Below, piece by piece: positions 1,557-10,080 of a stretch of DNA of 42,421 nt. The notes beneath the pieces were generated by a model. The model worked only from the letters and a program-made list of their open reading frames with translations. It was not told the origin of the DNA and made no database searches. The stretch is from a virus. The stretch is taken from the IMG/VR virus record IMGVR_UViG_3300025543_000062, positions 1-42,421 of that record. One strand, 5' to 3'. The position numbers were made by a program, and so were the translations under genes. The first letter of the stretch is position 1. Every line of letters starts with the position of its first letter.

Positions 1557-1585
1557 TTGACAAACCCAATATGATGTGGTAGGAT
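1557..1585 (+). promoter_or_regulatory. Sigma-70-like promoter, ATG at predicted +1
   Basis: TTGACA (1557-1562), a 17-bp spacer and TAGGAT (1580-1585). The next gene's ATG begins 7 nt after the -10 box, so transcripts from this promoter would be leaderless or nearly so. AGGA inside the -10 box could serve as SD only on longer read-through transcripts. Confidence 0.6.
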
Positions 1586-1591
1586 ACTATT

Positions 1592-1822
1592 ATGAAAAAT
1601 TGGTTGCTTGAACTTTTCGATCTACATAAAGATCAAAGCGGGAATGTGATCTATCGAGATCATGTGATCGTGAAGGTCATCAAGGCATATGATACATTTG
1701 ATGATGATATTGACATTTGGTGCTTTGCGGACATGAATCATCCCATTGCTCATTTCGGATATGCATACAGCATGAAAGATGCAAAGTCCAAAATCAGAAA
1801 GTTGATTAGCGAAGATAAGTAA
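1592..1822 (+). CDS. Small hypothetical protein (76 aa)
   Basis: The protein is acidic and basic in patches (MKNWLLELFDLHKDQSGN at the start) with several aromatic residues and a lysine-rich helical C-terminus. It resembles the small accessory proteins common in early phage regions. I recognise no family. Its promoter overlaps its start codon region. It precedes the NAD module but has no evident link to it. Confidence 0.6.
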   Translation: MKNWLLELFDLHKDQSGNVIYRDHVIVKVIKAYDTFDDDIDIWCFADMNHPIAHFGYAYSMKDAKSKIRKLISEDK

Positions 1823-1825
1823 TAC

Positions 1826-1864
1826 GCCAGTAAGGCACAACCCTAACTTAGATGGAGTTCTAAG
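1826..1864 (+). repeat. 39-nt NAD-gene leader element, copy 1
   Basis: Identical over 39 nt to 3346-3384. It contains GCC-AGTAA-GGC, a small potential hairpin, a pyrimidine-rich linker, and then CTTAGA-TGGAGT-TCTAAG, a 6-bp hairpin whose loop carries the GGAG ribosome binding site (1854-1857) of the gene at 1867. In this copy the flanking A and T extend the stem to 7 bp. An alternative AACT/AGTT pairing overlaps the same region, so two mutually exclusive folds can be drawn. Confidence 0.85.
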
Positions 1865-1866
1865 TC

Positions 1867-2928
1867 ATGACTACTCATAAGAATTACCCTAACGACTATG
1901 CTGTTTATATTGGGCGGTTTCAGCCAGTACATAAAGGCCATGTTAATATTGTCAAGTACGCCCTGATGCATGCAGAGCATGTCATTATTGGGATTGGTTC
2001 GGCCAATTCGAGTCGGCGTCCCAAAAATCCCTTTACATATCGCGAACGAGAAGAAATGTGGCGGCGTCAGTTCGCCCTTGCAGGCATTGATGAATCTCGG
2101 GTGTCGATGACCCCTATCAATGACTCACTCTATTCGGATACTGAATGGGTATCACATGTACGTCATAAAATCGGTCAAGCCATATGGATCGATCAGGTCA
2201 GTGGTCCGGACGATGGTGATGAACCAGTCGTTGCAATGACCGGATACAACAAGGACGACTCGTCATACTATCTCAAATATTTTCCTGAATGGTCAGGCTG
2301 CTATGCTCGGAATGTTAGCGTAATGCACGCTTCTGATATCCGTGAAGCCTACTATGATAAATGGGCAAATAATGCAAAGCTCGATCAAGCATATATTGAC
2401 TCGATGATCGATCCGAGTATTTTGACACCAGACAACGAGAAGGTCTTGATCGATCTTGCCGGTGAGTGGGATTTCAACGAAAAGTATGATCCTTCAAAGT
2501 TCCCTATCATTGTATCTACGGTCGATACGGTCGTGACGATGAATGGCCATGTTCTGGTGGTCAAGCGTAAGCACAAGCCCGGTCAGGGATTGAATGCTCT
2601 TCCGGGTGGTCACATCGAAGGTGATGAGACATTGGAGCGAGCTGCACTGCGAGAACTTCGGGAAGAGACGAAAATTGACTTGTCTGATCGAATTCTCCGT
2701 GCTAATATCAGAACCAAGGAGATTTTTGATCATCCTAAGCGTTCAGATCGAGGGCGAGTTATCACTACAGCCTTCCACATCAATCTGTCTGCCGAAGATA
2801 GCCTGCCTAGAGTGAAAGGTTCTGATGATGCCGCCTTGGCATTCTGGATGCCGCTCTCTGATATCAAGGAGGATGAATTCTTTGAAGATCATGGGCATAT
2901 CATTAACAAGTTAACCGCAGGTATGTGA
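1867..2928 (+). CDS. nadM: Bifunctional NMN adenylyltransferase / Nudix hydrolase
   Basis: The N-terminal half is a nucleotidyltransferase of the NadM type. GRFQPVHKGH (near residue 17) is the signature ATP-binding loop and the later ASDIREAYYD matches the ISSTxxR-like motif. The C-terminal third carries a Nudix box, GGHIEGDETLERAALRELRE followed by ET, which matches Gx5Ex7REUxEE. The 353-residue length is normal for fused NadM-Nudix proteins such as cyanobacterial slr0787 and the phage KVP40 protein. It joins NMN and ATP to make NAD+; the Nudix half probably hydrolyses ADP-ribose or a related dinucleotide. The nadV gene lies one gene downstream behind the same leader element, so the two probably act in one pathway and are co-regulated. 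Confidence 0.93.
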   Translation: MTTHKNYPNDYAVYIGRFQPVHKGHVNIVKYALMHAEHVIIGIGSANSSRRPKNPFTYREREEMWRRQFALAGIDESRVSMTPINDSLYSDTEWVSHVRHKIGQAIWIDQVSGPDDGDEPVVAMTGYNKDDSSYYLKYFPEWSGCYARNVSVMHASDIREAYYDKWANNAKLDQAYIDSMIDPSILTPDNEKVLIDLAGEWDFNEKYDPSKFPIIVSTVDTVVTMNGHVLVVKRKHKPGQGLNALPGGHIEGDETLERAALRELREETKIDLSDRILRANIRTKEIFDHPKRSDRGRVITTAFHINLSAEDSLPRVKGSDDAALAFWMPLSDIKEDEFFEDHGHIINKLTAGM

Positions 2929-2929
2929 T

Positions 2930-3346
2930 ATGAATATCAATCAAATCGCTTCGTATCTGTTCGTTACGGAGTATGTAGATACAAACTTCGGACAAGACCC
3001 TGATTGGGATGGTAGCTGGGACACTTATGACCCAGACTATGATGTTGGATATCCTGACACTCAATCAGTATTGGATCGTGCTGGTCATTTCGTAAGTGCG
3101 ATGCGAAAGGTTATGCCTAGATTGGAATCGGGCATGACACAGGAAGAGCTTCAGAAGGAATTTTATGACGTGGGAAATGAGTTCTACGGCAATAGCAACC
3201 TTCGGCAGTTTTTCAAGGATATATATTTAGTTCTCACAGGCAGTCCAAACGGCGCTCGTATTGGTAAGCTTGTTGAGATTTGGGGCACTGATGAGTTCAT
3301 CGAACGAATGTTGTTTCGTATGGCCGCTCCTCATGTCCCACTTTAG
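2930..3346 (+). CDS. Hypothetical acidic protein between nadM and nadV
   Basis: 138 residues, starting 1 nt after the nadM stop, so it is probably translated with nadM. Residues 20-45 are rich in D, W and Y (repeated DPDW/DPDY-like pieces), and the C-terminal half is predicted helical. No catalytic motif is recognised. Its last base overlaps the first base of the second 39-nt element. Its place inside the NAD module suggests a role linked to NAD metabolism or defence evasion, but that is inference from position only. Confidence 0.65.
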   Translation: MNINQIASYLFVTEYVDTNFGQDPDWDGSWDTYDPDYDVGYPDTQSVLDRAGHFVSAMRKVMPRLESGMTQEELQKEFYDVGNEFYGNSNLRQFFKDIYLVLTGSPNGARIGKLVEIWGTDEFIERMLFRMAAPHVPL

Positions 3347-3384
3347 CCAGTAAGGCACAACCCTAACTTAGATGGAGTTCTAAG
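3346..3384 (+). repeat. 39-nt NAD-gene leader element, copy 2
   Basis: Exact second copy of 1826-1864, ending directly at the nadV ATG (3385). The GGAG (3374-3377) sits in the loop of the CTTAGA/TCTAAG hairpin, 7 nt before the ATG. The two copies differ only in the 2 nt that separate copy 1 from its ATG. Exact conservation of a noncoding stretch in front of two functionally paired genes points to a shared control element. Confidence 0.85.
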
Positions 3385-4791
3385 ATGTATAAACGTAATC
3401 TAATTCTCTCGACTGACTCGTATAAGCACAGCCATTTTGAACAATATCCTGACGGAGCCGAATACGTTAGCTCGTATATCGAAGCCCGAGGATGTGATGT
3501 TGACGGATGGGAAGACACTGTTCTTATGGGTGTGCAGGGATATATCAAGGAATATCTCCTTGATCCTGTGACCATGGATGATGTCGAGGAAGCCGCAGTT
3601 ATCTGTGCCGCCCATGGAGTTCCCTTCAATCGTGAGGGCTGGGAATATATCGTCACTGAACATGATGGCATGCTTCCTCTTGTCATCGAAGCCCTTCCTG
3701 AAGGGTCTGTGGTCAATCTCCACACATGTCTGGTCCAAGTCCAGAATACCGACCCTAAGGTTCCTTGGCTGACATCCTTTATCGAGACTGGTCTGCTTCG
3801 GGCTATTTGGTATCCGACCACGGTTGCCACCCAGTCCCGAGAAATCAAAAAGATCATCAAGAAATATATGATGGAAACTGCCGGTCACATTGAAGGCATT
3901 GATTTCAAGCTTCACGACTTCGGTTCTCGGGGTGTTTCCAGTGGTGAGTCTGCTGCAATTGGTGGCATGGCCCACATGGTAAACTTCATGGGGTCCGACA
4001 CCATGGATGCACTGGTATATGCTCGACGCTATTATCATGCTGATATGGTAGGCTTCTCGATCCCGGCCACTGAACACTCAACGGTTACCAGTTGGGGCAA
4101 GGACGGCGAAACTGAAATGTATCGTCGAGTGCTTGACAATGCTATCAAATCTCCTAGTCCTCTGACCGCATGTGTCTCTGACTCGTATAACATCTATAAT
4201 GCATGCCAGAACATCTGGGGCGGAACTCTCAAGCATGACGTTGAGGCCCTTGAAGATCATGGGAAGGTATTGGTTGTTCGACCAGACTCCGGTGATCCTC
4301 GTACAGTGCCTGTGAAATGTATTGAGATTTTGTCTGAACAGTTCGGATACACTGTCAATGAGCTTGGATATAAAGTCCTCCCTCCATACATTCGGGTAAT
4401 CCAAGGTGATGGTATCAATCATGAGTCGATTGGTGACATTCTTGAAAACCTGAAACAGGCTGGGTTCTCTGCCGAGAATATTGCTTTCGGTATGGGTGGT
4501 GCTTTGCTTCAGGGTATCAATCGAGATACCTTCAAGTTCGCTATGAAGGCTTCGGCCATTCGAGTTAATGGCGAATGGAGAGATGTGTTCAAAGACCCAA
4601 TCGAAGGCGGCAAATCGTCTAAGAGTGGTCGTCTCATGACAACTCGCAATCCGGACAACACATTCACCACATATCGGATGGATAGTGTCGCAGTTGATTG
4701 TACCAATAATGCCATGAATATGGTCTATCGAAATGGAGTATTTCGACAAGACGATCATTTCGATAATATCCGAGAACGTGCCAAGCTGTAA
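3385..4791 (+). CDS. nadV: Nicotinamide phosphoribosyltransferase
   Basis: 468 residues, near full length for the NAMPT/NadV family. Family motifs are present in order: HDFGSRGVSSGE (phosphate and ring binding), GSDTMDA, SIPATEHSTVTSWG with the catalytic His region, VVRPDSGDP for PRPP binding, IQGDGI and FGMGGALLQGINRDT. The enzyme condenses nicotinamide with PRPP to give NMN in the cytoplasm, which the product of nadM then converts to NAD+. It starts directly at the end of the second 39-nt element. The pair matches the phage NAD+ reconstitution route described as NARP2 and the KVP40 nadV/natV pair. Confidence 0.96.
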   Translation: MYKRNLILSTDSYKHSHFEQYPDGAEYVSSYIEARGCDVDGWEDTVLMGVQGYIKEYLLDPVTMDDVEEAAVICAAHGVPFNREGWEYIVTEHDGMLPLVIEALPEGSVVNLHTCLVQVQNTDPKVPWLTSFIETGLLRAIWYPTTVATQSREIKKIIKKYMMETAGHIEGIDFKLHDFGSRGVSSGESAAIGGMAHMVNFMGSDTMDALVYARRYYHADMVGFSIPATEHSTVTSWGKDGETEMYRRVLDNAIKSPSPLTACVSDSYNIYNACQNIWGGTLKHDVEALEDHGKVLVVRPDSGDPRTVPVKCIEILSEQFGYTVNELGYKVLPPYIRVIQGDGINHESIGDILENLKQAGFSAENIAFGMGGALLQGINRDTFKFAMKASAIRVNGEWRDVFKDPIEGGKSSKSGRLMTTRNPDNTFTTYRMDSVAVDCTNNAMNMVYRNGVFRQDDHFDNIRERAKL

Positions 4792-4799
4792 TTTTTAGC

Positions 4800-4828
4800 T
4801 TGACCTCCATCGCCCCATGGTCTATACC
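4800..4828 (+). promoter_or_regulatory. Sigma-70-like promoter
   Basis: TTGACC (4800-4805), 17-bp spacer, TATACC (4823-4828). It lies between nadV and the gene at 4857 and gives a leader of about 22 nt that contains ATGGAGAG as SD. Confidence 0.65.
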
Positions 4829-4856
4829 TTGATCATCGGAGCGATGGAGAGTTCTT

Positions 4857-5618
4857 ATGTCTAACCCACACATCACACTTTATATCGGCACTGGCATGAA
4901 GAATGGCTACTATACGCTTCGTCGTTGTATCCAAACTGATCGCAGATATACTGATAACTATGTGAAGAACCTTTCTACTGATCGTGACAAGGCTGTGGCC
5001 AAAGCATTGGAGTATTCCAACAGCGTTTATAAGGACCATCCTCAAGTCACTTGCATGACCGATGTGGACTTTGAATTATCCCCGCATGGCACCGCTATTA
5101 CCCATCCCGCAGACATCGAGCGCCTTCGTATGATTGATGCTGGTGTGATGCCTTTCGGTAAACATATTGGTACTGCGTTCACTGATCTTGAAGATGGATA
5201 TGTTCTGTGGTGGGCAGATCGCGAAGCTGAACTGACGGTTGGTGACCCTAAAAATATTGCTATCGCAGTATGTCATCGCTGTAAGGATGAATGTGTAGAT
5301 CGTGGCCTCTTCCTTGCCAGAGAATTGAAAGTTATTGCCGCAGAAATTAATCGAGCGAAATCTCGACATGTTGGCACTATCGGTGAGAGGAATTCGTATA
5401 ATGTGACAATCACCGCATCGAACCGTTATGAAGGCACGTATGGTTCATATTATATCACGGCTATGATTGACTCTGATTATAATTTGTACGTGTATCGTGG
5501 TTCGTCCAATTTAGGCCCAAAGGGTATTGATATTTCCATTCGAGCTACCATCAAGGAACACACTGAATACAAGGGTGCCTTGCAAACTCGGTTGCTTCGG
5601 CCAATGAGATTAGGATAG
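4857..5618 (+). CDS. DUF3820-like / phage accessory protein
   Basis: 253 residues with two visible parts. Near residues 98-115 the segment MPFGKHIGTAF...DGYVLWW matches the FGKHxG...YxxW pattern of DUF3820, a domain often found beside nucleases and helicases. The C-terminal part (about 180-250) is beta-rich and ends with KGIDISIRATIKEH followed by EYKGALQT, a pattern I associate with a recurrent phage domain. Enzymatic activity is not evident. It has its own promoter. The DUF3820 assignment rests on motif resemblance only. Confidence 0.65.
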   Translation: MSNPHITLYIGTGMKNGYYTLRRCIQTDRRYTDNYVKNLSTDRDKAVAKALEYSNSVYKDHPQVTCMTDVDFELSPHGTAITHPADIERLRMIDAGVMPFGKHIGTAFTDLEDGYVLWWADREAELTVGDPKNIAIAVCHRCKDECVDRGLFLARELKVIAAEINRAKSRHVGTIGERNSYNVTITASNRYEGTYGSYYITAMIDSDYNLYVYRGSSNLGPKGIDISIRATIKEHTEYKGALQTRLLRPMRLG

Positions 5619-9303: not shown

Positions 9304-10080
9304 ATGATTAAATCATTCTCAAAATTTATGGGCAAATTACCGGCACTTGATGTGAAGCTGCCAGTCAAGTCTGCTGTTGTGATATTTGGTAACCTGTCAG
9401 TGCCAAGTAAAAAGCATAGTGAAATATTTGAAGACGCGGCCCTGATCGCCAAGGACAACAATTCCCAATTATTCATCTATGGTAAACCGGATTCAAATGG
9501 ACCGGATCGATTAAAGGAATTCAGACAAGCATTCCCAAGATATGCTAGATCAATTCGTATCGATGAAAATATCGAAACTCTTGAGTCAGTGCTGACCGAG
9601 TTATCGTCACATGGGTTTACCAACGTCTCAATATTTCCAACAACAGCACAATCAAATCCATTGAGTGAATCTCAAGAAAATGAAATGTTCCCGAACGGGG
9701 TTACGTTCCAAAACTGGTCCGCAGAAAATGCCGAAGCCAGACTTATCGAGGCCATTGAGGCCGAAGACTTTATCACTTTCATGAAAAACTCCCCGTTCAA
9801 CACTCGGGACAAAGCTAGAAGTGTCTTTAACGGGCACAGGAAGGCGCTGGGCTTGAAAGAAAGCACTCCGGCTACCTTCAGGCCTAAATTCGATAAAGAG
9901 CCGTCAGAGAAGCGTGAGCGATTCTTCGATGAAAACGTCCTGACCGAGGGCGACGACGCAATTATCAAAAAAACTAATGAGAAGGTGTCGGTCAAAACTA
10001 TTGGCTGTAATTATATCATTGTCGAAAACTCTAACGGGGCGTCCAAGAGACTTTGGCCTCATGATCTAAGGAAACCATAA
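9304..10080 (+). CDS. Degenerate nucleotidyltransferase-fold protein, probably virion-associated
   Basis: 258 residues. Residues 20-70 (AVVIFGNLSVPSKKHSEIFE) align by eye with the GRFxPxTxGH loop of phage cytidylyltransferase-like proteins, but the second histidine motif is reduced to K-K-H and the Arg is lost, so catalysis is doubtful. The C-terminal 45 residues (KKTNEKVSVKTIGCNYIIVE, then W) resemble the small beta domain that ends such proteins in T4-like marine phages. The gene sits within a late-type block and overlaps the next ATG (TAATG). Function inferred: structural use of an old enzyme fold. Confidence 0.6.
   Translation: MIKSFSKFMGKLPALDVKLPVKSAVVIFGNLSVPSKKHSEIFEDAALIAKDNNSQLFIYGKPDSNGPDRLKEFRQAFPRYARSIRIDENIETLESVLTELSSHGFTNVSIFPTTAQSNPLSESQENEMFPNGVTFQNWSAENAEARLIEAIEAEDFITFMKNSPFNTRDKARSVFNGHRKALGLKESTPATFRPKFDKEPSEKRERFFDENVLTEGDDAIIKKTNEKVSVKTIGCNYIIVENSNGASKRLWPHDLRKP

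Follow-up and report, generated by a model that had tools for sequence, protein, structure and literature searches.

A two-hairpin leader at the ribosome binding sites of viral NAD-synthesis genes: a proposed translational operator with NadM as candidate repressor

The 42,421-base IMG/VR virus record IMGVR_UViG_3300025543_000062, analysed over its full length and here called the window, carries on its plus strand a gene block, ORF76–nadM–ORF138–nadV (ORF, open reading frame), in which two genes for the synthesis of nicotinamide adenine dinucleotide (NAD) are preceded by the same short leader. nadM (1867..2928, start codon ATG at 1867) encodes a 353-residue nicotinamide mononucleotide (NMN) adenylyltransferase fused to a NUDIX domain (Pfam CTP_transf_like and NUDIX; PHROG 395; PDB relatives 2qjo and 2qjt), and nadV (3385..4791, ATG at 3385) encodes a 468-residue nicotinamide phosphoribosyltransferase (Pfam NAMPT_N and NAPRTase; PHROG 448). 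Phage NadV and NadM rebuild NAD+ by salvage, and depletion of NAD+ is a bacterial anti-phage defence (PMC9503650; PMC12774641). The leader, GCCAGTAAGGCACAACCCTAACTTAGATGGAGTTCTAAG, is 39 nt long and is present in two copies, directly upstream of nadM (1826–1864) and of nadV (3346–3384), which are 100% identical, as a first-pass annotation of this DNA had observed.

By sequence and predicted fold, each leader consists of a 3-bp hairpin with the loop AGTAA (hairpin 1, H1) and, after about 10 nt of linker, a second hairpin (H2) that holds the GGAG of the ribosome binding site (RBS) in its loop. In the nadM leader, H1 (GCC-AGTAA-GGC) spans 1826..1836, the single-stranded linker 1837..1846 and H2 (CTTAGA-TGGAGT-TCTAAG) 1847..1864, with the GGAG at 1854–1857. 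In the nadV leader, the same H1 occupies 3346..3356, where its first base overlaps the stop codon of the upstream ORF, and the same H2 occupies 3367..3384, with the GGAG at 3374–3377 and the ATG directly 3′ of it. The H2 stem is 6 bp long, extended to 7 bp before nadM by the last A of the linker, and it ends either 2 nt before the ATG (nadM) or directly at it (nadV). The leaders fold at −11.2 and −9.9 kcal/mol (z −2.2 and −1.7), and the two stems make up 81% of the predicted ensemble, in agreement with the hairpins that the first-pass annotation had drawn. That annotation had also proposed a competing AACT/AGTT pairing as a switch; such a pairing is possible, but it has little room beside the dominant fold and is absent from the nearest relative described below, and as a switch it is therefore not supported. 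Among 35 candidate gene starts tested in the window, the two nad leaders have the strongest RBS hairpins. The 18-nt H2 sequence is found at only these two sites in 42 kb with up to three mismatches allowed (0.02 expected), and the H1 loop sequence CCAGTAAGG likewise occurs exactly twice in the window, both times in the nad leaders.

The nearest relative, contig L002 (32 kb), encodes NadV and NadM proteins with 58% and 52% identity to those of the window. It carries the window loop, CAGTAAG, before both nadM and nadV, and there too CCAGTAAGG occurs exactly twice, at the two leaders. Its nadM H1 is GACC/GGTC, so that ACC/GGT stands in place of GCC/GGC with a change on both sides, and its H2 arms (TCAG/CTGA and TGCAA/TTGCA) also differ from those of the window. 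Because these leaders keep the loop and the pairing with altered stems, the perfect identity of the two window copies is a local matter, and structure and loop are what is conserved. A pattern search of IMG/VR for the AGTAA subtype returned four matches, none of them near NAD genes, and so the subtype is so far confined to the window and L002; the window NadM, used by itself as the query, brought up no close relative.

The leader was then compared across 80 viral loci that encode relatives of NadV, most of which also encode NadM, by reading the sequence upstream of each start. A common plan recurs before nadV and nadM: a hairpin with a GATAGAC loop (a pentaloop ATAGA closed by a G–C pair), a linker and an RBS hairpin, the last typically ATAA-GGAG-TTTAT adjoining the ATG. 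The H1 loop is GATAGAC in most genomes. The linker of the relatives is poor in G, 6–17 nt long (24 in one case) and without a strongly conserved base, and among the unpaired positions conservation across the relatives is limited to the H1 loop and the RBS. Covariation was assessed in an alignment of 38 leaders from which the window was excluded. Two-sided changes are seen in 12 of the 13 pairs and 92.5% of cells are paired; H1 pairing was a selection criterion for these sequences, but H2 pairing was not, and 96.9% of the H2 cells are paired. The alignment has a covariation score of 0.906, whereas shuffled alignments score 0.200 and slid pairings reach 0.175 at most. RBS hairpins with stems of at least 5 bp precede 78% of nadV and 55% of nadM starts, compared with 8% of the other genes of the same loci. 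Conservation of the stem in related phages, which the first-pass annotation had proposed as a check, is thus observed as retained pairing, and, as expected of a phage operator, a structured RNA conserved by covariation overlaps the RBS.

The genomic positions of the element point in the same direction. A model built from other genomes (R1), dominated by GATAGAC loops, was scanned at E ≤ 0.01 over 100 loci (1.0 Mb) that had been chosen for their nad genes and included the window. It gave 108 hits: 56 before nadV, 47 before nadM, three before a 108-residue ORF just 5′ of nadM, one before nadE and one at a contig edge; that is, 107 of the 108 precede nadV, nadM, nadE or small ORFs 5′ of nadM. Over 40 whole viral contigs the hits lie at nad genes as far as coordinates tell, and one distant hit that was read out precedes nadM. 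The full records of four cultured phages (Ruegeria phage DSS3_MAL1, RcXuper, Synechococcus phage B23 and Xanthomonas phage LucasX) contain exactly two hits each, as do two bacterial genomes, a 4.9-Mb metagenome-assembled genome and the 5.2-Mb genome of Thalassospira xianhensis. Pattern scans of IMG/VR, blind to gene content, returned 70 distinct matches with an H1 stem of at least 4 bp, 65 of which precede nadV or nadM; three of the remaining five precede small ORFs adjoining nadM. Many phages unrelated to one another, and a small number of bacteria, therefore have relatives of the element before their NAD genes, and these comparisons of sequence strongly support both its existence and its specificity for NAD genes. 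The first-pass annotation had called it a cis-acting translational element specific to the NAD pair: covariation and genome-wide position uphold an operator of NAD genes, while "pair" proved too narrow, since nadE, pnuC, a LuxR-type helix–turn–helix (HTH) gene and small ORFs also carry it.

These further contexts are varied. In T. xianhensis the element precedes nadM and nadE, in an island (L206, 6600–18400) with methylases, nadM–nadE, genes resembling pncB and pncA and an adenylosuccinate synthetase-like gene; it is possibly a prophage with a full route from nicotinamide to NAD. Two small alphaproteobacterial genomes have the element before nadM and before a small LuxR-type HTH gene (L204, 585–5305; L205, 2134–6800). 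In both, nadM lies back to back with an ORF of about 1100 residues in which TIR-like, NB-ARC and TPR domains were read by eye, and is followed by the HTH gene; the arrangement is a possible NAD-linked immune locus. One locus (L022, 221–4669) groups pnuC, a nadR-like gene, nadM and nadV in one block, and its pnuC, nadM and nadV all carry the element with one loop, GTGGW. Ochrobactrum phage OC (L226, 6452–7374) has nadM, nadV, pnuC and nadR within 7 kb, with the element on nadM and nadV only. Conserved ORFs of 108–125 residues directly 5′ of nadM, each with its own copy of the element, were seen at three loci (L049, 593–919; L312; L345); the one such ORF that was tested matched no Pfam family. 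Three kinds of match were set aside: an exact 18-mer match in IMG/VR, which lies inside an ORF of an unrelated phage (L001) and is ascribed to chance; matches to the pattern AGATAGACT...TAAGGAGTTTA in many contigs, which fall in a single conserved ORF (MKYAIK...), lack H1 pairing and are regarded as chance in coding sequence; and hits of the bacterial class scans at E > 0.001 (L199–L202), which have no NAD gene.

The H1 loops differ between lineages, yet agree between the leaders of one genome, where the H1 stems mostly differ. Besides AGTAA in the window and L002, matched loops are AAAGA (BUCT-ZZ01), AAGA (BcepSauron), GGGGT (Ochrobactrum phage OC), GWTGTA (Erwinia phage SNUABM_19), GGWGA, GTGGW and AGGTA. 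The nadM and nadV loops agree within one base in 14 of 17 genomes or classes, read by hand and uncorrected for shared ancestry, as against 2.8 in shuffles. The targets of one genome thus share a recognition loop while their stems vary, again as a phage operator would, with shared ancestry uncontrolled.

We put at roughly 0.55 the probability that the leader is a two-hairpin translational operator common to NAD-synthesis genes, with NadM as the likeliest autogenous repressor. Since the RBS lies in the loop of H2, translation initiation is the natural step to be controlled. H1 would present a short recognition loop, and in the unbound state the A/U-rich H2 would be opened by the ribosome and the NAD enzymes made. 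A trans-acting RNA-binding protein that grips the H1 loop and H2 would lock H2, so that translation of nadM and nadV would stop together. That a protein reads the element seems to us quite probable, because the conserved unpaired bases are limited to the H1 loop and the RBS and the linker is variable, unlike in an aptamer, and because the loops vary between lineages yet match within a genome. That NadM is this protein we consider an even bet, judged from co-occurrence only. Every large element-bearing contig examined encodes NadM, and three genomes have the element and NadM with no NadV found in them. Conversely, seven phages with a NadV-type gene and no NadM, several with an adjoining Prs in the manner of NARP1, have no H1 and no notable RBS hairpin, the nearest approach being one AT-only 5-bp stem with a 9-nt loop. 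The two nucleotide-binding domains of NadM could allow it, as an autogenous repressor, to sense NAD+, NMN or ADP-ribose. Both domain types have precedents: NadR, with a domain of the NMN adenylyltransferase (NMNAT) type, and NrtR, with one of the NUDIX type, have been turned into DNA-binding feedback regulators of NAD genes. NadM joins the two, which makes feedback sensing plausible and is no evidence of RNA binding. We infer repression as the direction of control, a protein rather than a metabolite as its agent, and any response to a ligand. More tentatively, and at somewhat less than even odds, NadM may moonlight as an RNA-binding feedback repressor: its active sites would gauge the NAD pool, translation of the whole NAD-salvage operon would be shut off through the two hairpins, and the loop would coevolve with NadM, in phages that span many groups of bacteria as well as in a small number of bacterial genomes.

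Several observations count against this assignment. The phages that lack NadM mostly carry distant NadV proteins of the NARP1 type, so that absence of the element may reflect gene lineage. RHph_I1_18, X66, Bajun and Magneto encode NadM and have no element, and the NadM-bearing RB16, Taquito and BUCT608 have H2 only; because of these phages, control by the element is not obligatory and NadM need not be regulated by it. NadM has no recognised RNA-binding domain, and any gene linked to nadM could encode the binder. The loop agreement depends on 17 readings by eye with common descent left in, and automatic reading of the loops gave the same direction more weakly (1.81 vs 2.33). Finally, the R1 model scores the nadV leader of the window at 9.2 bits (E 2.4) and does not list the nadM leader. 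The window leaders do show the anatomy of the family (a short-loop H1, a linker, an RBS hairpin and the ATG of a NAD gene), and we regard them as a divergent loop subtype, whose link to the family comes from this anatomy, from gene context and from L002, and not from the model.

The same evidence bears on other explanations. The RNA itself might bind NAD+ or a precursor or breakdown product and thereby close or open H2, as a new small class of riboswitch. Such a class would suit a set of genes (nadM, nadV, nadE and pnuC) that share a pathway and not a protein fold, as well as a GATAGAC loop conserved from cyanophages to alphaproteobacterial genomes, and two classes of NAD+ riboswitch already exist, one of them on pnuC (PMC7749635). 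We nevertheless think it unlikely: there are no conserved nucleotides beyond a hairpin loop of 5–7 nt and the RBS, the linker is variable in length and unconserved, and loops as different as ATAGA, GGGGT, AGTAA and GWTGTA, matched within genomes, are difficult to explain by a single ligand common to all. On sequence grounds, this anatomy argues against a classical aptamer. Within-genome loop matching points instead to some macromolecule. A minor share of the probability, perhaps one chance in five, goes to an operator for a trans-acting factor other than NadM, whether another RNA-binding protein of the phage, a protein of the host or a small RNA. The small element-bearing ORFs adjoining nadM could encode such a factor in some genomes; as a universal regulator they were rejected, being too rare and limited to few loci. 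Host factors fit poorly with lineage-specific loops, and no other protein was seen to be common to the cyanobacterial and proteobacterial phages and the G041, G279 and G289 genomes, among which no whole-proteome comparison was made.

Simpler readings dispense with a binder. A passive RBS hairpin might tune initiation, affect decay or couple translation to the upstream gene, and both window leaders do begin at, or a few bases from, the stop codon of the upstream gene; yet it would need neither an H1 with a conserved loop nor confinement to NAD operons, and we judge it improbable. Least credible of all is that the 39-bp direct repeat is duplicated DNA only, a recombination scar of gene insertion. 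The window copies are identical and flank the nadM–ORF138 block, and recent duplication may explain that identity; it does not explain the element, for in L002 and many other genomes the two leaders differ yet keep their pairing, and covariation largely refutes a reading as duplicated DNA only.

Compared with known systems, the proposed operator resembles the autogenous operators of phages (T4 gp43 and gp32, and the coat and replicase operators of RNA phages), with which it shares RBS hairpins, a short recognition loop, the expected repression by a phage protein and recognition elements that diverge with the protein; it differs in having two hairpins with the RBS within the second loop and a regulon of NAD genes, and its binder is a candidate. 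CsrA/RsmA proteins recognize the GGA of an RBS in a hairpin loop together with a second upstream hairpin, bridging two sites. The element has these two features as well, but bridging of the CsrA type was rejected: GGA is absent from the H1 loops (ATAGA, AGTAA, AAAGA and others) except in a few genomes, and the sites are confined to NAD operons. NadR and NrtR (NrtR regulators are cited as refs 163–164 of PMC9503650) have the NMNAT and NUDIX domains that are both present in NadM, but they bind DNA, whereas the element, by its anatomy, would act on RNA at the RBS. Like the element, the NAD+-I riboswitch (nadA motif) places two tandem stem-loops before a NAD gene, the second domain containing the RBS (PMC7708056); the stems of the riboswitch are bulged, with a ACANCCCC bulge (PMC7297122), while the element has simple hairpins, no conserved bulge and no Rfam hit. 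The NAD+-II riboswitch (pnuC motif) also controls a gene of the NAD pathway, and one relative of the element precedes pnuC; it is built from three helices, a triple helix and a long-range pseudoknot (PMC10085692), in contrast to two simple hairpins without an Rfam hit. A survey of viral NAD systems makes no mention of riboswitches (PMC9503650). According to the same survey, NadV is present in every NadM phage; should the Thalassospira island be a prophage, it would be an exception, for it has nadM together with nadE and a pncB-like gene, and no NadV was found in it. Searched against Rfam 15, the window yielded no family at the gathering threshold, and at a relaxed threshold 1560–3500 gave chance-level hits only; 12 related loci yielded tRNAs and a group I intron only. 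The open-access literature, with subscription papers outside the scope, contained no description of the element that we could find. The earlier impression that no such element had been described has thus held.

The first gene of the block, ORF76 (76 residues, 1592..1822), and ORF138 (138 residues, 2930..3346), between nadM and nadV, both on the plus strand, have no assigned function, and relatives of either sought among the collected loci were not found. A promoter-like TTGACA-17-TAGGAT lies 5′ of the block at 1557..1585 on the same strand; it is a consensus match only, of a kind no more frequent in the window than in shuffles. Downstream of nadV, the leader of an ORF at 4857–5618 contains, within 4798–4857, an inverted repeat of 9 bp (CTCCATCGC/GCGATGGAG) whose 3′ arm includes the RBS; the repeat encloses promoter-like hexamers, TTGACC-17-TATACC, and folds at −28.9 kcal/mol (z −5.4). 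This reads like T4 e/soc: the RBS would be hidden in a read-through RNA, and transcripts started at the internal promoter would be without the 5′ arm. A 258-residue ORF at 9304–10080 weakly resembles phrog_395, the family of phage NadM-type cytidyltransferases (E 1.3e-9), and is, by that similarity, possibly a second nucleotidyltransferase.

If feedback through a common RNA operator does govern the NAD genes, phages would have a means to time the rebuilding of NAD, and so would some bacteria in which nadM lies beside a TIR-like immune gene. The finding would add an RNA family that is missing from Rfam, and a direct link between a NAD enzyme and translation would become testable. It would also provide a natural series of coevolved RNA–protein pairs, with at least eight loop types, for studies of recognition.
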